Positions 37,481 through 46,721 of a stretch of 59,265 bases of DNA are shown here, piece after piece (the stretch's first letter is position 1; every line of letters begins with the position of its first letter). The DNA is from Paludibacteraceae bacterium (GTDB taxonomy: Bacteria; Bacteroidota; Bacteroidia; Bacteroidales; Paludibacteraceae). A program made the position numbers and the translations under genes. The notes under the pieces are model-generated. The model was not told the DNA's origin, did no database searches, and was given only the letters and a program-made list of their open reading frames with translations. The stretch spans positions 1-59,265 of the forward strand of contig CAJOIR010000010.1 of NCBI GenBank assembly GCA_905234685.1, given 5' to 3'.

Positions 37481-38353
37481 ATGCAGTCTCCGCTGACAAA
37501 ATCGCAATGGGTGGGAGCATGTATAATAATACTGATTATCGCCCTTTTCATCGGGAGTTTTCGCCTTGCAAATGTTATGACACGTCCGCAAGAGGAGATG
37601 ACTACGACAATTGATTCGCTGACTATATCAGAGATAGATATACTTCAGGAGAGGAGCAAGAGCACTTATTATATTAACATGAGTAGTGATACGATTGCTG
37701 TAAACCTTCACCCTTTCGACCCGAACACAGCCGACAGCATAGAACTCCTTCAGTTAGGCATGAAGCCGTGGATGGCGAGAAACATGTTGAGATATAGAGC
37801 TAAAGGCGGTGTATGGCGCAGCAAAGAATCACTGCGTAAGGTATATGGCATGACAGACGAATTGTATGCACAGATAGAACCATACATTGTAATCATTCTT
37901 CCAGAAGATACGATATCAAAACGACCTGAATATATTGCGCAGATAAAGAAAGACACTATTTTAGGTTTGAACTCATGCGACACAACCAATCTAAAGTATC
38001 TGCGTGGCATAGGTAGCGGTTATGCACGACTTATAGTAAGGTATAGGCAAGAGTTAGGAGGATATGCTTATGTGGAGCAATTGCGAGAGATAAGAGAGAT
38101 ACCTGAGGTGACTCTTGACTCTATAATTCCTCATTTCTTTGTTGAGCAAGACAGCATAAGGATGATAGATGTTAATAAGGCGACAGTTGAGCGTATGTCG
38201 CGTCACCCATATCTAAGTTTCACTCAAGCAAGAGCTATATATGAACTTCGTCGCAGTCGTTTCCGTCTGCAGAGTATAGAGGAACTGTTTGGCACAGAGT
38301 GCTTAACAGACACAGACATAGTACGTCTAACGCCATACCTAAGGTTTGATTAG
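37481..38353 (+). CDS. Membrane-anchored protein with three helix-hairpin-helix repeats (ComEA-like)
   Basis: A 290-residue protein with one N-terminal membrane segment (VGACIIILIIALFIGSFRL, about 11-29). Three repeats each have an ends-in-HhH pattern: DPNTADSIELLQLGMKPWMA (about 75), NSCDTTNLKYLRGIGSGYAR (about 163) and DVNKATVERMSRHPYLSFTQ (about 228). HhH pairs bind DNA backbone without sequence specificity; anchored forms such as ComEA take part in DNA uptake. The role here is inference. It is probably co-transcribed with the sirtuin and converges with the CXXX operon. Confidence 0.85.
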   Translation: MQSPLTKSQWVGACIIILIIALFIGSFRLANVMTRPQEEMTTTIDSLTISEIDILQERSKSTYYINMSSDTIAVNLHPFDPNTADSIELLQLGMKPWMARNMLRYRAKGGVWRSKESLRKVYGMTDELYAQIEPYIVIILPEDTISKRPEYIAQIKKDTILGLNSCDTTNLKYLRGIGSGYARLIVRYRQELGGYAYVEQLREIREIPEVTLDSIIPHFFVEQDSIRMIDVNKATVERMSRHPYLSFTQARAIYELRRSRFRLQSIEELFGTECLTDTDIVRLTPYLRFD

Positions 38354-38364
38354 GCGAAACGTGA

Positions 38365-38643
38365 TTATTTGTCAGGAGTGACGAGTAGAATTTCGCAGGT
38401 ATCGAAGTTGATTTCCCAGTTACCATTAGGTGCCGCCTCCCAGTTGTACTTTTTAGCCATCCTATCCCACCAACTTTGGAATCTGGCAGCCGTTTCACCC
38501 ATGTCTTTGACAAGTTTCTCATAGAGTACAGCATTGTCAGCTGTAAGAATCTTGGCGAGTTCATTCAATCCATTGCGTCGCTCGAAGATATTCTGAATTT
38601 CTTTTTTCTCTTCGACAGTTACTTTTCCAACTAACTTTTTCAT
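38365..38643 (-). CDS. Small accessory protein of the CXXX-repeat peptide system
   Basis: A 92-residue cytoplasmic protein without Cys clusters. The first two thirds are predicted helices (VTVEEKKEIQNIFERRNGLNE, YEKLVKDMGETAARFQSWWD); the last third has short strands (NGNWEINFDTCEILLVTP). Size, position right after the maturase genes and the N-terminal pattern match what I recall of the small modification-system protein of CXXX-repeat loci. It could act as a peptide-recognition or chaperone subunit; that is inference. It is the last gene of the operon, 6 nt after the SPASM partner. Confidence 0.75.
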   Translation of the reverse strand: MKKLVGKVTVEEKKEIQNIFERRNGLNELAKILTADNAVLYEKLVKDMGETAARFQSWWDRMAKKYNWEAAPNGNWEINFDTCEILLVTPDK

Positions 38644-38649
38644 ATTGTT

Positions 38650-39594
38650 TTAGAATTGTTCCCGAACGTCAAAAGGGTCGAGATATGTGATTTCTTTTAT
38701 TTCGTTTGTTACGGAGGAACCTGCATTCCTAAGTTGTTGCTGCAGGTAACGAGTGGCATTGCGCTCAAGATGCGCAATGACGCACTGCTGATGAGAAGGA
38801 GTATTGTTATCCCAAGTTAGACGCTGGTTTAACCAGACACACCTTCTGCACTGGTACGCATCACAGATGCGGCATAAAGGTGCATTGTCAAGTTTGAGGA
38901 GGCGCTGATTGGGTATATGTAACCCTATTTCAAGATCTCCAATACTATAGTCGGATGAGGGTTTGTGATGATTGAGACGGTTATTAATTCCCATTCGCTC
39001 ATTATAATAGAAAGCAGGACAAAGATAGAACTTACCGTTGGGCGCAACAGTGATGTTTCCGATGCCAGCGTTGCAGTTGTGCATCATATCAAGTTGCAAG
39101 CGGTCAGTGATGATATTGAGTTGCGGTTGTCTGCCTTGTTTGAACATCTCAAGAACTTTGGCATTGAGTGTCGCCAGAGCTTGCTTGTAGTCCTCTGTTT
39201 GTGCATCCTTGAAGGAATCGATATCTCTTAAACAAATGTTCAAGCGTTTTGGTTTAGGCAACAAAGCGGCGATATCATGCTGTCTGGCAATAAACTCCAC
39301 AATAGTAAGGCGCAACACGGCAATCTCTGCAGTAATTGCATCAGGCACTTCGTTATATATTGCTATATCGCGACCAATAGTGATATGATCAATAGACTCC
39401 ATAAGTAGATTGTACTCCTCTGGCAATTTATATTCAGGCACAACATACTGAATCATGAGATTCTCTTTCATACCGTAGAGAATAGCCTTACGGAGGGTAT
39501 CTAACGGCATTAGACAACGTTCCTCAAGTGGGTTGTCCGCATGACAGTAAGCAACACTTGTATCGTCCAACAGTATAACTAAATAATGCATCAT
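38650..39594 (-). CDS. CXXX-repeat peptide maturase partner (SPASM-like, no radical SAM core motif)
   Basis: A protein of about 314 residues with no CxxxCxxC motif near its N-terminus, so it should not bind the SAM-cleaving cluster. In its second half a SPASM-like set of Cys is visible: MMHNCNAGIGNITVAPNGKF, YLCPAFYYNE and LCRICDAYQCRRCVW. This suggests auxiliary iron-sulfur or metal sites and a role as partner of the neighbouring radical SAM enzyme. The start is uncertain: an ATG at 39612 would overlap the upstream gene by 14 nt; the ATG at 39594 (MMHYLVILLDD) fits a folded start better. Confidence 0.78.
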   Translation of the reverse strand: MMHYLVILLDDTSVAYCHADNPLEERCLMPLDTLRKAILYGMKENLMIQYVVPEYKLPEEYNLLMESIDHITIGRDIAIYNEVPDAITAEIAVLRLTIVEFIARQHDIAALLPKPKRLNICLRDIDSFKDAQTEDYKQALATLNAKVLEMFKQGRQPQLNIITDRLQLDMMHNCNAGIGNITVAPNGKFYLCPAFYYNERMGINNRLNHHKPSSDYSIGDLEIGLHIPNQRLLKLDNAPLCRICDAYQCRRCVWLNQRLTWDNNTPSHQQCVIAHLERNATRYLQQQLRNAGSSVTNEIKEITYLDPFDVREQF

Positions 39595-39598
39595 AATA

Positions 39599-40819
39599 TT
39601 AACATCGTACAATGTTCATAGATTTTCTGTTCGCCTCGTATTCCTCACGTGAATTTTCCAGTTCCAATTTACGGAAAAGTTTGTTCCAGTAATAGTTGTT
39701 AGCATGCACACGTGCTTTATGCATTTTGCATATAGCAGTTGCACGTTCAAAGATGGTATGTGTAGCGGCAGCATCAAAATTCTCACCCTGACACCAGGCA
39801 CAACCTTCGGCTATCTCACAGTCAATACATTCCTGTGTTGACTGCGTGCATCGGTCAAGAGTGAGGAACGGACGGAGTTTGTTTTTGTCAATGCCATCTC
39901 TTATGTTACCTATTATCCACGCCTCTTTGTCACGAAGTGAATACTGTGCAAAACGTGTACAAGGATAGAAGTTGCCTGCTGCATCAACTGAAAGCATTTT
40001 TCCTGCTCCGCACCAATTCTGATTGTCATATCTGCAATCCAACTGATGTCCTATCCGCTCGGAAAAAAAAGAACAGGAAAAGTCCTTATAAAGCCCGTTG
40101 TCAATAATAGCATCTGCCAATTGAACAAGTTGCTCTTCAAACATGAGGTCGTCACCGTCATTCCAGACATCTTCAAACACACAATTGATATTCACCTGAT
40201 GAATGCCAAGTTCATAAAGATGTAGTACTGACTCTTTAATATAAGGTATGTCAGGAGAAGAGATGGTCACTTTCGTACCTGTACCGGGGAATTGCTTAAG
40301 CCAAAGAGGTATGTTACGCACAACATCATCGTATGAACCTCGATCCGAACCTTTATATACACGATTAAGGTCATGCTTACGGCGCGTACCATCAATAGTG
40401 ATACCAATAGACAAGTGACTGTGGTTTTTCTCTATATAACGTTGCACCTTTTCGGAGTCATAGTTTATGCCGTTGGTAGAGAAAGAGAATCTATAGGAAT
40501 CAAACCAAGGATGGTTAAGAGCAAACATCTGCTGTTTGATGTAATCACAAATCCTATCTATAAGGTCTATCTCCAAAAACGGTTCTCCGCCTATGAAATC
40601 CCAGATGACAGATTCCTGCTGAAAGTCGGGGTCATCGTCACGTGACAAGATATAGTCAACAGCAGCCTTGGCAACCTCCCACGGCATACGTTCGCTGACA
40701 TTTTTGCCTACAAGATAGCAATACTTGCAGGCAAGTTGACAGTCTTTGGTAACAATGAAAGTAATACTTTTTGCCCTTCCTTCCTGCCACCCTGGGTTAT
40801 TATCCTTAATGTTGCTCAT
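39599..40819 (-). CDS. Radical SAM/SPASM peptide maturase, CXXX-repeat target family
   Basis: A 406-residue radical SAM enzyme. The 4Fe-4S motif is C27-x3-C31-x2-C34 (TKDCQLACKYCYLVG); DFIGGEPFLEIDL is the SAM-binding GGE motif. The C-terminal SPASM domain has WCGAGKMLSVDAAGNFYPC and then CTQSTQECIDCEIAEGCAWC, giving ligands for two auxiliary clusters. Such enzymes install thioether or carbon-carbon links on ribosomal peptides. It starts 2 nt after the stop of one Cys-rich protein gene, so that protein is the obvious substrate. The chemistry performed is not known to me. Confidence 0.93.
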   Translation of the reverse strand: MSNIKDNNPGWQEGRAKSITFIVTKDCQLACKYCYLVGKNVSERMPWEVAKAAVDYILSRDDDPDFQQESVIWDFIGGEPFLEIDLIDRICDYIKQQMFALNHPWFDSYRFSFSTNGINYDSEKVQRYIEKNHSHLSIGITIDGTRRKHDLNRVYKGSDRGSYDDVVRNIPLWLKQFPGTGTKVTISSPDIPYIKESVLHLYELGIHQVNINCVFEDVWNDGDDLMFEEQLVQLADAIIDNGLYKDFSCSFFSERIGHQLDCRYDNQNWCGAGKMLSVDAAGNFYPCTRFAQYSLRDKEAWIIGNIRDGIDKNKLRPFLTLDRCTQSTQECIDCEIAEGCAWCQGENFDAAATHTIFERATAICKMHKARVHANNYYWNKLFRKLELENSREEYEANRKSMNIVRC

Positions 40820-40821
40820 AA

Positions 40822-41670
40822 CTAACTATTAGAACTTTTACATGTGACATTGCAAGAGGTGTTACAAGAGAATTGGCATCCCCGACGACAGAATCCTGTG
40901 CAACTTGTATCACAAGACCAACTGCAAGTAGAGCATGAAGTGCCTCCTTTAACATAACCTGCGCAATCATTTTCACAAGTAGAAAGACATTTACTGCCGC
41001 AAGTAGTGCCGCATCCGCTGCTACAATTCTTATAGCAACTTGCCGTACATGTTTTGCAACCACTGCCGCTACCTGTTGAAGAGCCAGAACAACTAGTAGA
41101 ACAACCACCAGAACAAGTGCCGCTACAACCTGAGCAACCGCTTGATTTTGCTGTCCCTGAGCAAGTACCACGGCAAGTGGTATTGCAGTCCATCAGGCAA
41201 TTTGTCATACACGTTGAAGAGCATCCTTGACAACCACCTGTACATGAAGACGAGCAACCGCCAGTACAACTTGTGCAACCAGTATAACACCCACTCGAGC
41301 ATCCGCCAGAGCAACTACCAGAACAACCTCCAGTGCAACTTGTGCAACCTCCGGTGCAAGTCGTAGAACATTTACCCGTGCAATCTGTCTCACAGCCACC
41401 GGTGCAAGTAGTAGAGCAAGTGCCTACACAACTATTGCCACAACCTCCAACAGCTGTACCAGTACAAGATGTTGAACAACTTCCTGTACAGTCTCCCTCA
41501 CAACTGACTTCGCAGTTGTTTCTGCAGTCGGTCACAGCAGAGCATGCCTCAAACAAAGGTGTACCAAATACTGTCATTCCAAGTACGGGTAACGCTGTCT
41601 GTACGACACGTTTGAAGAAGTTCCTGCGGTTAAGCAGTTCTTCGTTATTTGTTTTTCTGTCTTCTTCCAT
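40822..41670 (-). CDS. CXXX-repeat Cys-rich protein 1, predicted radical SAM substrate with Tat-like leader
   Basis: A 282-residue protein with 55 Cys by hand count, mostly spaced as CXXX, X being nearly always Gly, Ser or Thr. Residues 1-43 form a leader: acidic start, twin arginine R15-R16 in LLNRRNFFKR, hydrophobic TALPVLGMTVFG, then PLFEAC with a possible lipidated Cys43. The start at 41670 mirrors the paralogue at 45208; a longer start at 41691 is less likely. It begins inside the end of the upstream lipoprotein gene, with AGGAAG 8 nt before the ATG. Alternatives such as a metallothionein-like metal binder cannot be excluded, but the adjacent maturase argues for a modified peptide. Confidence 0.85.
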   Translation of the reverse strand: MEEDRKTNNEELLNRRNFFKRVVQTALPVLGMTVFGTPLFEACSAVTDCRNNCEVSCEGDCTGSCSTSCTGTAVGGCGNSCVGTCSTTCTGGCETDCTGKCSTTCTGGCTSCTGGCSGSCSGGCSSGCYTGCTSCTGGCSSSCTGGCQGCSSTCMTNCLMDCNTTCRGTCSGTAKSSGCSGCSGTCSGGCSTSCSGSSTGSGSGCKTCTASCYKNCSSGCGTTCGSKCLSTCENDCAGYVKGGTSCSTCSWSCDTSCTGFCRRGCQFSCNTSCNVTCKSSNS

Positions 41671-43039
41671 AAATATCTTCCTTACCATCAACAGGTTGCT
41701 GCATACTGAGAAGTGTTATTTGCTTTGGTGCCTGCGAAAGATTGGTACGAGTGAATGTCAGGTTCGTATATACTGATGAGCGATTATAATATGAATTATT
41801 GTATGAATAATAGAATGTTGCATATAGGGCATTTGCCCTGCGACCATTATTATCGTCTGAATCAGAAGGACCATAAGTAATCTTGCCCTGTTTGTCAATA
41901 GTAAACCACGCTTCTGCAAGATTGTTGTACCCTTTACCTCCTTTTAAAATATACCAGTTACTGCCTTCTGCATATACCGCATAGTAATGAGCGTAAAAAG
42001 TAGTGTCACCCGTGTGCCATGCAGGAGCAGTGAATGTCTTACTGTCATCACTTAATCCACTATACAATCTAATACAATGTTTTTCACTGTCATATCTTCC
42101 AAAGGCATTTATACCTCGCTGTCCCCATATAATACCATCAACAACAACCCATATTTCGTTGTCTGGACCGGTGAATGTGTTAATCTTCACATTATCCCAA
42201 GCCTCATATGTTTTGTCTTCAAAATTGTAAGCACGACAACTCCACGTTCCAAGAAAATCACTTATGGTATATGAGAGACCTTGAGCATCAGTGGTGGTGA
42301 AAGAGATAATGTTACTATAGAAGAGTACAGAGTCTTTAGTTAAAGCATAAGCACGTACATAATATGTAGTATTGATTTTCAGATTATCAAGTGATCTTGT
42401 AGTGTCTATTGTACTTTCTGTCCAAAGCGCCTGCACTCCTTTTGCCGTAAAGAATACCCTGCTCTCATAATCATTCCAGTCTGGAGTTGGTATTGTAGCA
42501 CTATACATGACGCCCAATTCTATAACCTCTATTCCAGAGTAGCGCGTTGCAGAGAATGGTATAACAGCAGTAGTAGTGGTTATGTTTTCAGGTGTGCCTA
42601 TAGACAGCGTTATGACATCGTCATTCCTCAGCAACGCATCGCTCAATAGTTCACCCTCACCTGTATGCGCCTCAGTTGTCATGTTCAGCACACGCACTTC
42701 TCCATAGGCAGTACCTTCGGAGTTGGTAGCATAAGCACGATATGACCAATACCCGAAAGATATACCTTCTATAGGTGCCATGAAACTACCAACACCCCTG
42801 CCGGCAGAAGCATGTTTTCCTGTTATATCAGGTTCTCCCTTGCCTTGCATGTAGCATACTCCACGGTCGGTCACCGGTGCTCCACCGTCAGCCTTCACTT
42901 CTCCATTGCAGACAATGGTGAATGTCTCCGGGTAAGTTGTATATTGCCCCGTCGTAGCAGTAGGTAATTCGAAAACTTTAGGCTGGCATGCACAAAACAC
43001 AAAGACAAATACAATAAATACAAGTTGTTTACTATTCAT
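41645..43039 (-). CDS. CXXX-operon lipoprotein B (two Fn3-like modules plus C-terminal beta domain)
   Basis: A 464-residue predicted lipoprotein (signal VFVFCAC). Module 1 (about 25-125) has the GEVKADGGAPVTDRGVCYM pattern and YWSYRAYATNSEGTAYGEV; module 2 (about 148-255) ends TTYYVRAYALTKDS. The C-terminal domain (about 262-440) starts DFLGTWSCRAYNFEDKTYEA and looks like a lipocalin-type barrel. It is a paralogue of the gene directly upstream. Its 3 prime end overlaps the start of Cys-rich protein 1, so expression of the two is coupled. A role in binding, surface display or acting with the modified peptides is inference. Confidence 0.8.
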   Translation of the reverse strand: MNSKQLVFIVFVFVFCACQPKVFELPTATTGQYTTYPETFTIVCNGEVKADGGAPVTDRGVCYMQGKGEPDITGKHASAGRGVGSFMAPIEGISFGYWSYRAYATNSEGTAYGEVRVLNMTTEAHTGEGELLSDALLRNDDVITLSIGTPENITTTTAVIPFSATRYSGIEVIELGVMYSATIPTPDWNDYESRVFFTAKGVQALWTESTIDTTRSLDNLKINTTYYVRAYALTKDSVLFYSNIISFTTTDAQGLSYTISDFLGTWSCRAYNFEDKTYEAWDNVKINTFTGPDNEIWVVVDGIIWGQRGINAFGRYDSEKHCIRLYSGLSDDSKTFTAPAWHTGDTTFYAHYYAVYAEGSNWYILKGGKGYNNLAEAWFTIDKQGKITYGPSDSDDNNGRRANALYATFYYSYNNSYYNRSSVYTNLTFTRTNLSQAPKQITLLSMQQPVDGKEDIYGRRQKNK

Positions 43040-43053
43040 AATGAATAAAATTC

Positions 43054-44511
43054 TTATTTCTTTTTAACAAGAATATGCTGAGAAATATGTCGAAGTATAA
43101 AGGTTTTGTCAGTATATCGTATCTGTACGCCTCGGCGCGGCATCTGCTGGTATTCCCTTGTAAAACGTGTATCCCACATATAGACAGGAGTTGACTTGTT
43201 ATACCAATCAAGAGTACTTACATTCACATAATCGAAAACATACGCTCCTGCCGTGTTGTTATAATTGTCTGGTTTGTCAGATTCTTTGAAATATAGTGCA
43301 CCGTCATTATCCTTTACGAGCAGAATCTCTCCGCCAAAGTTGTCATCATTGTCATCATTAGACAGATATGTACGCTCGTTTTTGTCAAAATCATACGCAA
43401 CAGGAAAGAATACAGGATATACGAGCGTATTGTCTATTGTTACTGTTTTGTCATCGAAATAATAACCGCCATAAAGGCGGATAACGCCTTTGTCAGCATC
43501 ATACACGCCAGAAGCCGCATAGTTTGCGTAACCGCTATATAGCCCCTCAACAATAACCCATTGTTTGTCATTAGCATCCACATAATACTTGCTTATAGTA
43601 ACACCACTCCAATAACGATAATTCATATCGGGAAGTTCGTGTGCACGAACATACCAAGTACCAAGATAGTTATCAAGACCAATAGTGTTCGCTGTTTCTT
43701 TTAAGGTTGTGAATTGAATCGTGGAACTATAGTAGTTTTTGGCAGTAGTGTTAACATAAGCTCTTGCATAATATGTGGTGGATGGTTTCAAGTCTGTCAC
43801 CTGAGCATAGCCGGTAACAACGTTATTCTTCCAATTGGCAGCCAGATTGCTCTTTTCGAAAAAATACCGTGTGTCATAAGTATTAAGGTTGGGTGAGTTA
43901 ACCGTTCCACTTATCAAGATGCCGACTTCTTCCACACCTGTCAAATCTGTTATATTGGCAGAGAAGTATATGATAGCGGTAGTAGCGGTTATTTCCTTAG
44001 GTGAATCAATAGTCAAAGTAATGGTATTGTCAGGAGTAGGAGGTGTTTCTGGATTGTCTGGTGTCTCCGGATTGTCCGGAGTATCAGGATTTTCTGGCGT
44101 AACTGGTATTATCGTACCTACACCTGAATCCTCCTTGTCGGTCATTTCAAAGGCTTTCCAATCTCCGTAGCTTGTGCCTGCTGAATTGGTAGCATAGGCA
44201 CGATATGACCAATGCCCTTTTGTTATTGACTGTAGTGCTGACAAGAACTCACCTCTGCCAGTACCGGCTTCAATACATACATTGTCAACCGAAGGTGGTT
44301 TTGTAGTACCTTGCACATAGCAAATACCTCGTTTAGTATTTATGTCGCCTCCGTTGTCAGTTACTTCACCTTCACATGCCACAGTATTAGTAAGAGGGTA
44401 TGTGTGGAAATTACCTGTGGTAACTATAGGCAGATTGACAACGTCATTATCATTGTTGCAGCACCAGAAAAAAGCGGCAACCACTATAAGAATCAAACCG
44501 TGCTTTCTCAT
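43054..44511 (-). CDS. CXXX-operon lipoprotein A (paralogue of lipoprotein B, with Pro-rich linker)
   Basis: A 485-residue predicted lipoprotein (signal AAFFWCC). The layout equals that of the next gene: Fn3-like module 1 (GEVTDNGGDINTKRGICYV, HWSYRAYATNSAGTSYGDW), module 2 (IGLDN preceded by STTYYARAYVNTTAKNYY) and a C-terminal domain starting YLGTWYVRAHELPDMNYRYW. Between modules a Pro-rich linker of PDNPET repeats (about 145-165) replaces the short linker of lipoprotein B. It sits between the second Cys-rich gene (13 nt upstream) and lipoprotein B (14 nt downstream). Confidence 0.8.
   Translation of the reverse strand: MRKHGLILIVVAAFFWCCNNDNDVVNLPIVTTGNFHTYPLTNTVACEGEVTDNGGDINTKRGICYVQGTTKPPSVDNVCIEAGTGRGEFLSALQSITKGHWSYRAYATNSAGTSYGDWKAFEMTDKEDSGVGTIIPVTPENPDTPDNPETPDNPETPPTPDNTITLTIDSPKEITATTAIIYFSANITDLTGVEEVGILISGTVNSPNLNTYDTRYFFEKSNLAANWKNNVVTGYAQVTDLKPSTTYYARAYVNTTAKNYYSSTIQFTTLKETANTIGLDNYLGTWYVRAHELPDMNYRYWSGVTISKYYVDANDKQWVIVEGLYSGYANYAASGVYDADKGVIRLYGGYYFDDKTVTIDNTLVYPVFFPVAYDFDKNERTYLSNDDNDDNFGGEILLVKDNDGALYFKESDKPDNYNNTAGAYVFDYVNVSTLDWYNKSTPVYMWDTRFTREYQQMPRRGVQIRYTDKTFILRHISQHILVKKK
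44042..44095 (-). repeat. Three 18-nt in-frame repeats coding the PDNPET linker
   Basis: Units 44042-44059, 44060-44077 and 44078-44095 differ at a few positions and code for six-residue Pro-Asp/Glu-Asn repeats of lipoprotein A. Confidence 0.8.
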
Positions 44512-44524
44512 AAACTATCCTCCA

Positions 44525-45208
44525 TTAACTTGCACCGCCCTTACAATAGCCTCTGCAAGAAGTATCGCAATAACCCTTACATGAGGAAGAACAACTTCTA
44601 TCGCAAGCGTGATAGCAACCATATGTGCAACTATAATTGCAACCAGAACTTGAACCAAGAGCTTCTGCAAAAGAGCAAGACTCCATACATGAAGCAGTGC
44701 AGAACTGGTGACAGCCGTTGCTGCAATACTGCATACATGTCTCTGAGCATGATGAACATCTACCTGTGGCCGTGTTATCGCAATCACCTTTGCAACTTGT
44801 ACTGCAACTGCCAGTACAACTTGTACAACCAGTAGAACAACCGCCCGTGCAATCACCTGTGCAACCTGAATAGCAACTCCCACCACATCCGCCTGTACAA
44901 CTTGTGCAACCAGTCTGACATCCAGTGGAACATGAACCTGTACAACTGGCAGAACAACTGCCTACACACGTATTCCCGCAACCGTCATAAGCCGAGTTGT
45001 CACAACTCTTTGAACAACTGCCTGTGCAACTACCCTCACAAGACACTTCGCAACTGTTTCTGCAATCGTTATGACTCAATGCCGAACAAGCCTCAAACAA
45101 TGTAGGTCCCATCACGGCGATACCCAAGACAGGCAACACACCGCGTGCTGCTCTACGGAAGAATTGCCGCCTTGACAATAATTCGTCATTCCTGTTATCT
45201 TCTTTCAT
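44525..45208 (-). CDS. CXXX-repeat Cys-rich protein 2, predicted radical SAM substrate with Tat-like leader
   Basis: A 227-residue protein with 42 Cys by hand count, CXXX-spaced with small residues between. The leader (1-41) has R13-R14 in LLSRRQFFRR, close to the Tat consensus SRRxFLK, then a hydrophobic stretch with VLPVLGIAVMG, and TLFEAC. The leader is strongly conserved with Cys-rich protein 1 (SRR/NRR, LPVLG, LFEACSA), as is the first core part (CRN-CEVSCEG-CTGSCS). The C-terminal third has more Tyr, His, Met and charged residues. It is the promoter-proximal gene of the operon. Confidence 0.85.
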   Translation of the reverse strand: MKEDNRNDELLSRRQFFRRAARGVLPVLGIAVMGPTLFEACSALSHNDCRNSCEVSCEGSCTGSCSKSCDNSAYDGCGNTCVGSCSASCTGSCSTGCQTGCTSCTGGCGGSCYSGCTGDCTGGCSTGCTSCTGSCSTSCKGDCDNTATGRCSSCSETCMQYCSNGCHQFCTASCMESCSFAEALGSSSGCNYSCTYGCYHACDRSCSSSCKGYCDTSCRGYCKGGAS

Positions 45209-45240
45209 AAGAAATCAATAAGAATTAAACTATCACCGCA

Positions 45241-45272
45241 CAAAGGTAAAAAGATTTGTTAAACATTCCAAA
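45241..45272 (-). promoter_or_regulatory. Promoter of the CXXX-repeat operon
   Basis: Minus-strand TACCTTTG (45241-45248) and TTTG (45269-45272), spacing 20 nt, a full Bacteroidetes match. The leader to the first gene is about 25-30 nt. No second promoter was found inside the operon. Confidence 0.75.
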
Positions 45273-45395
45273 TATTTTTTAACATTTTCTGTCTAAAGCA
45301 GAATATAATGGCTTTATAATAACAATAATATTGACTTCGCATAGAAATACGAAGGCAACGACGTGATGTGGTACAAGCGTAGTTGTGATTAGGTG

Positions 45396-46721
45396 TTACA
45401 GTATTGTTGCGGGTTCGCCAATGAGTGTTGCGGGTGTAGCATCGGTGATGCGGATGTTGACGAATTCTCCAATATGTCGTCCTTGACGTGGAAAGACGAC
45501 GGTTTTGTATTGTGAAGTACGTCCTACCATCTGTTCCCTGCTTCGTTTGGCGAATCCCTCGACGAGAACTTCAACGTTTTTCCCTATTTCGTTCATGTTA
45601 CTTTCGAGCGAGAGTTGTTGCTGTAGTGATATGATTTCGTTAAGCCGTCTAATTTTGACATCTTCCGGTATGTCATCGGGGAGATGTTTAGAAGCATAGG
45701 TACCGGGTCTTTCGGAGTACTTGAACATGAAGGCGGTATCGAAGTGCACTTGTCGCATAAGCGACAGTGTGAGTTGATGGTCTTCTTCGGTTTCGGAATG
45801 AAATCCGCAGAAGATGTCGGTACCGATAGCGGCCTGTGGCAGAATGGTGCGTATTGCATTGATGCGCTCCAGATACCACTCACGCGTATATTTGCGATTC
45901 ATGAGCCGTAGTATCCTGTTGCTACCGCTCTGTACGGGCAGGTGTATGAACTTGCATAAGTTGTCGTGCTGGGCGATGATTTCGAGAGTATGGTCCGACA
46001 TATCTTTGGGGTGTGAGGTAGTGAATCGAATACGCATGTCAGGCACAGCTTGAGCAACAATGCCGAGCAGTTGCGGGAAGGCGACATCGTTGAATTGATA
46101 TGAGTTGACGTTCTGTCCGAGCAGAGTGACCTCTTTGTATCCTTTCTGTTGCAGGTCATGCACTTCGCGAAGAATGCTTTCGGGATCCCGGCTACGCTCT
46201 CTGCCTCTTGTATAAGGTACGATGCAGTATGAGCAGAAGTTATTACATCCTCGCATGATACTGACGAATCCGGAAATGCTTTTCCCAATTCTTGAGGGTA
46301 TGATGTCGCGGTATGTCTCGGTGGTGCTAAGGTTGATGTTTAGTGCTTTGGTGCCCTGAAGAGCCTGTAGGATAAGGTTAGGGATGTCGAGATAGGCATC
46401 GGGGCCTGCAACGAAGTCAACATCATAGTCATTGAGCAGTTGCTGCCCGAGTCGTTCTGCCATGCATCCGATGATGCCAACAACAGGTGATTTGTGTGGC
46501 TTTCGTCCTTTGAGCCTGCGGCTGTTTATCTCGCGGAGTCTGGAGAAGATTTTCTGCTCGGCATTGTCACGAATAGAACATGTATTGAGAATGATAATAT
46601 CAGCTTTGTCAATGGTGTCGGTCAATAGCCAATCAGTAGTCTGCATAACAGCAGCGACTACTTCTGAGTCAGCGACATTCATCTGACAGCCGTAGGTCTC
46701 TATGTAGAAATATTTACCCAT
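45396..46721 (-). CDS. miaB: tRNA-2-methylthio-N6-dimethylallyladenosine synthase
   Basis: MiaB is a radical SAM methylthiotransferase that modifies A37 of tRNAs reading UNN codons. The 441 residues from the ATG at 46719-46721 begin directly with the domain (YFYIETYGCQMNVADSE); an upstream in-frame ATG would cross the promoter. The first cluster uses the Cys in YGCQMN, LNTCSIRDNA and GIIGCMAERLG; the radical SAM motif is GCNNFCSYCIVPYTRGRERSR near 152-172; a TRAM domain ends the protein (VLVEGFAKRS, GEFVNIRITDA). A TATCTTTG element lies at 46729-46736 but its -33 element is weak. Confidence 0.96.
   Translation of the reverse strand: MGKYFYIETYGCQMNVADSEVVAAVMQTTDWLLTDTIDKADIIILNTCSIRDNAEQKIFSRLREINSRRLKGRKPHKSPVVGIIGCMAERLGQQLLNDYDVDFVAGPDAYLDIPNLILQALQGTKALNINLSTTETYRDIIPSRIGKSISGFVSIMRGCNNFCSYCIVPYTRGRERSRDPESILREVHDLQQKGYKEVTLLGQNVNSYQFNDVAFPQLLGIVAQAVPDMRIRFTTSHPKDMSDHTLEIIAQHDNLCKFIHLPVQSGSNRILRLMNRKYTREWYLERINAIRTILPQAAIGTDIFCGFHSETEEDHQLTLSLMRQVHFDTAFMFKYSERPGTYASKHLPDDIPEDVKIRRLNEIISLQQQLSLESNMNEIGKNVEVLVEGFAKRSREQMVGRTSQYKTVVFPRQGRHIGEFVNIRITDATPATLIGEPATIL

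Follow-up and report, generated by a model that had tools for sequence, protein, structure and literature searches.

Predicted Tat export of large cysteine-repeat proteins from a CXXX-repeat radical SAM operon in a Paludibacteraceae bacterium

Radical-SAM peptide systems are usually regarded as producers of small secreted peptides. A seven-gene operon on the minus strand of contig CAJOIR010000010.1 from a Paludibacteraceae bacterium (assembly GCA_905234685.1; the whole stretch analysed, of 59,265 nucleotides, is called the window below) combines maturases of the CXXX-repeat type with two large Cys-rich proteins, their putative substrates, and with two lipoproteins, here called LipA and LipB. 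This raises the question of what such substrates may become, and by which route they would leave the cytoplasm. The answer that we consider rather probable, judging from the genes of the window and of its relatives, is that the substrates are cross-linked in the cytoplasm and that the finished chains are then exported by the twin-arginine translocation (Tat) pathway to a membrane-anchored site, where they would be associated with LipA and LipB. The Tat signals, the linkage to tatAC and the linkage to FnIII-type lipoproteins were absent from an earlier note made from the sequence of the window, and it is these features that say most about the working of the system.

Both substrates of the window start with a Tat signal, which reads S-RRQFF in Cys-rich protein 2 (44525..45208, signal at 45089..45208) and N-RRNFF in Cys-rich protein 1 (40822..41670, signal at 41545..41670), with LP at +13/+14 from the twin arginines in either case. 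The signals end in a loose lipobox, LFEAC, that passes a strict in-house rule and places the lipid cysteine at residue 41 and residue 43, respectively. Since both substrates have a lipobox, a lipid-anchored product is plausible, and passages of PMC10924467 treat Tat export of lipoproteins as accepted. For comparison, the best 80 of 326 confirmed stretches from a scan of genome contigs were taken as related loci. All 80 have a Cys-rich open reading frame (ORF), found by a filter in 79 loci and by a row outside this filter in the remaining one (L056); the 139 ORFs that the filter found, together with the two of the window, form a set of 141 substrates. The motif RRxF[FL] lies within the first 80 residues of 130 of these, whereas among 1202 other ORFs in these loci it occurs in 3, of which two are substrates missed by the filter. 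When the 130 proteins are aligned on the twin arginines, conservation of the leader goes beyond the motif used for their selection: LP stands at +13/+14 in 121, lysine at +6 in 117, glycine at +17 in 98 and serine at -1 in 86. The conservation of LP exceeds what the Tat pathway is known to require, and we infer that the conserved segment could have a double role, as a leader recognised by the maturases and as the ticket for Tat export.

The genes around the related operons point in the same direction. Downstream of the small helper gene, tatA and/or tatC is present in 63 of 72 testable loci; tatC itself was found in 61 of the 72 loci with enough sequence and is missing from 11 despite sufficient room, while 8 further loci are too short. 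The orientation of tatC is that of the operon in 60/60 loci having both tatC and helper, the tatA match begins a median of 15 nt past the helper, and Pfam confirmed the identity of TatC and TatA in one example each. In a genus sample of 121 genomes, TatC occurs in 17 of the 18 genomes with the system and in 44 of the 103 without it (Fisher p 5e-5), and in a family sample it occurs in 13/13 enzyme-positive versus 90/137 enzyme-negative genomes (p 0.01). As far as gene content can tell, the system is Tat-linked in most relatives studied, and the window holds what is predicted to be a large, lipid-anchored form of which the Tat genes lie elsewhere. In the genome of the window, a sensor-kinase-like ORF lies alongside the TatC gene.

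The assignment of the maturases to the CXXX-repeat type, proposed in the earlier note, was upheld with wide margins by the profile search for which that note had called. Against the curated NCBIfam cut-offs, the radical SAM/SPASM enzyme (39599..40819; 406 residues) scores 634 bits with TIGR04115 (cut-off 350), the SPASM-only partner (38650..39594; 314 residues) 209 bits with TIGR04119 (cut-off 150) and the helper (38365..38643; 92 residues) 97 bits with TIGR04116 (cut-off 50). Among the related loci the partner is found in 79/80 and the helper in 73/80, and of the seven loci where no helper was matched, six stop near its expected place. The motif CX3CX2C, at residues 27-34 of the window enzyme, occurs in the enzyme of 80/80 loci and in the partner of 0/79. 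The nearest solved structure to the enzyme is CteB and the nearest family model outside the CXXX group is PapB; since these nearest characterised enzymes form Cys thioethers, thioether chemistry on the substrate cysteines can be expected by analogy. For the partner, solved structures gave a single match at E up to 0.1, to the SPASM portion of CteB (E 0.003), and hhalign aligned the partner to the SPASM portion of the enzyme (probability 81). At locus L194 (genome G564, contig C54, 398-4556) enzyme and partner are one protein of 673 residues, with 455 bits for TIGR04115 (cut-off 350) and 119 bits for TIGR04119 (below the cut-off of 150). Most of its at least 120 relatives have a similar length, the organism names visible among the matches listed being Clostridia, and this fusion suggests that enzyme and partner act together. 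A RiPP recognition element (RRE) of the PqqD-like type, RiPP standing for ribosomally synthesized and post-translationally modified peptide, was not found in enzyme or helper, a result that does not exclude such an element; in the enzyme, residue 16 is the start of the radical SAM match. The AlphaFold2 model of the helper (predicted local distance difference test score, pLDDT, 94) has a strand, a two-helix hairpin and two strands, and a fold search with it returned common helical-hairpin matches and no RRE fold among the matches listed.

The description of the substrates as large and rich in cysteine holds: Cys-rich protein 2 has 42 cysteines in 227 residues (18.5%) and Cys-rich protein 1 has 55 in 282 (19.5%). 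Both match TIGR04117, with 49.5 bits (E 3.5e-13) and 37.2 bits (E 2.3e-9), respectively. Successive cysteines are four positions apart in 34 of 41 intervals in the former and in 43 of 54 in the latter, and over the 141 substrates this CX3C spacing accounts for 2529 of 2932 intervals, as compared to 189 for CX2C and 11 for CXC. The composition of the spacers suggests that the repeat is read in register, unit by unit: the share of bulky residues is 40.5% at x1, 20.6% at x2 and 13.8% at x3. Such residues are more frequent at x1 than at x3 in 128 of the 141 proteins, less frequent in 9 and equally frequent in 4. The tandem DNA repeats in the window are short and decayed and the substrate genes use both codons for cysteine (21/21 and 29/26), so that the register is likely maintained by selection on the protein. 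By analogy with characterised enzymes, each cysteine is probably linked either to a small residue nearby or to the following unit. Such a high content of cysteine could also indicate metal or iron-sulfur carriers that are loaded in the cytoplasm, undergo limited radical SAM modification, if any, and leave the cell folded by the Tat pathway, which in general exports folded proteins, often with a cofactor. Metallothioneins and ferredoxins, however, have CXC or CXXC spacing, unlike the substrates studied here, and the tight linkage of maturase and substrate also argues against carriers of this kind, which we consider unlikely. The metal-loaded polymer named in the earlier note may still be the product.

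The anchoring of the substrates appears to go with their size and with the lipoproteins. By the strict rule 36 substrates are of the lipobox type (34 from relatives and the two of the window); counted from the twin arginines, their median length is 202.5 residues, whereas the 94 that fail the rule have a median of 94.5 residues and range up to 226. The exceptional size that the earlier note saw in the window pair is thus real but not unique. Long substrates tend to be of the lipoprotein type and to co-occur with FnIII lipoproteins such as LipA (43054..44511; 485 residues) and LipB (41645..43039; 464 residues). According to models and searches, LipB carries a pair of FnIII-like domains and, at its C-terminus, a beta-rich domain; LipA is 35% identical to LipB and shares this C-terminal domain, and the lipid cysteine of proteins of this type is invariant in 21/21 aligned rows. 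Between the first and second domains of LipA, at 44042-44101, lies a short Pro/Asp/Asn/Glu/Thr linker repeat with 3.3 copies of an 18-nt unit. FnIII lipoproteins related to this pair are encoded on the operon strand at 14 loci, the window included, of which 13 have a lipobox substrate by the rule and one (L009) by eye, versus 18 of the 66 other loci (Fisher p 7e-6; with the window left out and L009 counted, 8e-7). The C-terminal domain of LipB is found at six of the 80 loci, always beside a lipobox substrate (at L009 by eye). These associations make it most likely that LipA and LipB are components of the system in its long, anchored form.

Given the many shorter substrates, the products might instead be secreted antimicrobial or signalling RiPPs, with the long forms as tandem precursors that are cut to small peptides after export. 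In many of the 94 substrates outside the lipobox rule the signal ends, by eye, at an AxA-like site, and at L194, a divergent locus, a gene for an ABC (ATP-binding cassette) exporter is present and a Tat signal is absent. This explanation is quite unlikely in view of the lipoboxes on both window substrates; moreover, none of the operon proteins reached the cut-off of a peptidase family, and a recurring cleavage motif between repeats was not noticed, no systematic test for one having been made. That most cysteines form disulfides outside the inner membrane while the maturases alter few residues is very improbable, for although some cysteines may not be maturase targets, the asymmetry between x1, x2 and x3 in 128/141 proteins need not occur in a plain disulfide protein, and the hosts, coming from gut and rumen, are probably anaerobes.

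Cytoplasmic cross-linking followed by Tat export would thus proceed as follows. The radical-SAM/SPASM enzyme and the SPASM-only partner would cross-link both substrates through their cysteines in the cytoplasm, and the finished chains would pass the Tat translocase and receive their lipid anchor outside the inner membrane. The Tat pathway would allow exit of a modified chain that may be too rigid for the Sec pore, and LipA and LipB could bind or present the anchored product, in the simplest form as one cell-envelope assembly, which is compatible with the cross-linked scaffold suggested in the earlier note. A more far-reaching version, to which we give somewhat less than even credence, is that a single N-terminal segment does duty as maturase leader and as Tat signal, that only thioether-laddered chains leave the cytoplasm, and that the long lipid-anchored forms build with the FnIII lipoproteins a covalently stapled envelope rod, a new type of surface polymer.

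Several observations weigh against this account. Behind the lipid cysteine of both window substrates, where acidic residues are weakly represented, the K-(D/E)2 type of signal for surface export (described in PMC5080379) is not evident, so that surface exposure is unsure. Both substrates score under the TIGR04117 cut-off of 50, and glycine occupies x3 in 22.5% of the spacers; therefore no single fixed beta-carbon acceptor at x3 suits all repeats. The LipB C-terminal domain is confined to few loci. Neither tatA nor tatC was found in 9 of the 72 testable loci, and the window operon too is without tatAC beside it; in this genome the TatC gene is broken between the ends of two contigs (C23:3-629 and C28:29914-30084), with TatA encoded on another contig (C17:31650-31802). 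The presence of TatC in 44/103 system-free genomes of the genus sample means that Tat is not exclusive to the CXXX system. In that sample G564, the genome of L194, is the sole exception that has the enzyme and no TatC match; the Cys-rich ORF of L194 has no twin arginines and adjoins the ABC exporter gene, and in this single locus the signal and the exporter, as predicted from their genes, change together. G564 is rated 7% contaminated, and the contig may be foreign to it. Finally, most relatives are metagenome-assembled genomes, certain pairs are almost identical, and part of the 80 loci come from genomes that are also in the genus and family samples, so the counts are not independent.

The layout described in the earlier note, with seven tightly spaced genes behind one putative promoter, was confirmed. 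The seven ORFs occupy 38365-45208 on the minus strand, and the gaps in operon order are 13, 14, -26, 2, 4 and 6 nt, the negative value being the overlap of the LipB and Cys-rich protein 1 genes. A match to TTTG-N20-TAnnTTTG, which we take to be a promoter pattern of Bacteroidales, lies exactly at the predicted position (45241..45272, minus strand) and is the sole such site with a spacer of 17-23 on the minus strand of 38000-46500. Since the same motif with a spacer of 19-21 recurs over the entire window, with 7 sites on the minus strand and 2 on the plus strand, it is not proof by itself. The operon has unremarkable neighbours, namely a miaB-like gene upstream and, downstream on the opposite strand, genes for a helix-hairpin-helix protein and a Sir2-family protein.

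The 80 loci come from Bacteroidales or broader Bacteroidia, two being labelled only 'bacterium' (L024, L046), and many are from gut or rumen. The distribution of the system is patchy; counting the window, it occurs in 18/121 genomes of the genus sample, 13/150 of the family sample and 5/392 of a phylum sample. Within the genus sample, a TIGR04117 match (E up to 0.001) was found in 16 of the 18 radical-SAM-positive genomes and in 2 of the 103 others, both doubtful: the match in G631 is weak, and that in G599 (C33:307-531), a genome with TatC and without an enzyme over the cut-off, is a frame interrupted by three stops that may be left over from a system since lost. Two CXXX loci occur together in one isolate (G533) with L021 and L069 and in another with L005, which has two shorter substrates outside the lipobox rule, and L009, of which the sequence is truncated and the long substrate has a lipobox by eye. 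In the enlarged locus L055 (7326-14540) the Cys-rich ORFs number five, helper and tatA are matched twice each, and an additional fragment of the partner is present. A lipobox-type Cys-rich protein of 416 residues with 38 cysteines (L025, 7717-8967) is above the usual size and of lower Cys density. A protein of 240 residues (L022, 7739-8461) combines a Tat signal, a lipobox and CXXX repeats with a subsequent domain resembling FISUMP, presumably of the type that occurs in Bacteroidales surface lipoproteins, and is a possible link between the CXXX repeat and surface-protein domains.

From the gene linkage, large repeat-built proteins are predicted to undergo modification in the cytoplasm before a pore for folded proteins exports them. 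For phage display of thioether-bridged peptides, a passage of PMC5686179 names Tat as a possible route and reports that preliminary attempts failed; if the present account is true, the CXXX/Tat operon would be a natural solution to this problem. A family known from computation thereby gains clear tests, namely the mass loss per cysteine and the dependence of export on tatC and the twin arginines. No publication on the CXXX-repeat system was found in the literature searched, the family being known from computational naming, and the excerpts of PMC10434189, PMC10352776, PMC8326336 and PMC9927498 contain nothing on it.

Among characterised systems, the nearest are PapB of freyrasin and CteB of the SCIFF ranthipeptides, although the window enzyme stays under the cut-off of their models (195.4 bits with NF047865 for PapB, cut-off 340; 113.9 bits with TIGR03974 for CteB, cut-off 425). 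According to a part of PMC9413430, PapB forms a thioether on Cys-X3-Asp, which is also a four-residue step; in the window substrates, however, the residue four positions on is another cysteine instead of aspartate, and a Tat signal is present. CteB is described in a part of PMC8172795 as a thioether former with an N-terminal RRE, whereas the radical SAM match of the window enzyme already starts close to its N-terminus. The Clostridia-type fused maturase of L194 resembles the window pair in that one protein matches TIGR04115 and, under the cut-off, TIGR04119, but its Cys-rich neighbour has no twin arginines and an ABC exporter gene lies inside the operon. The closest likeness is to the NCBIfam CXXX-repeat system (TIGR04115, TIGR04116, TIGR04117, TIGR04119), with the maturase-side trio above the cut-offs and significant matches for the substrates. 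It differs in that the window has two large lipobox-type substrates below the TIGR04117 cut-off, includes two FnIII lipoproteins in the operon, and has no adjoining tatAC, whereas most testable relatives have tatA and/or tatC. The window operon is a variant of this computationally named system.

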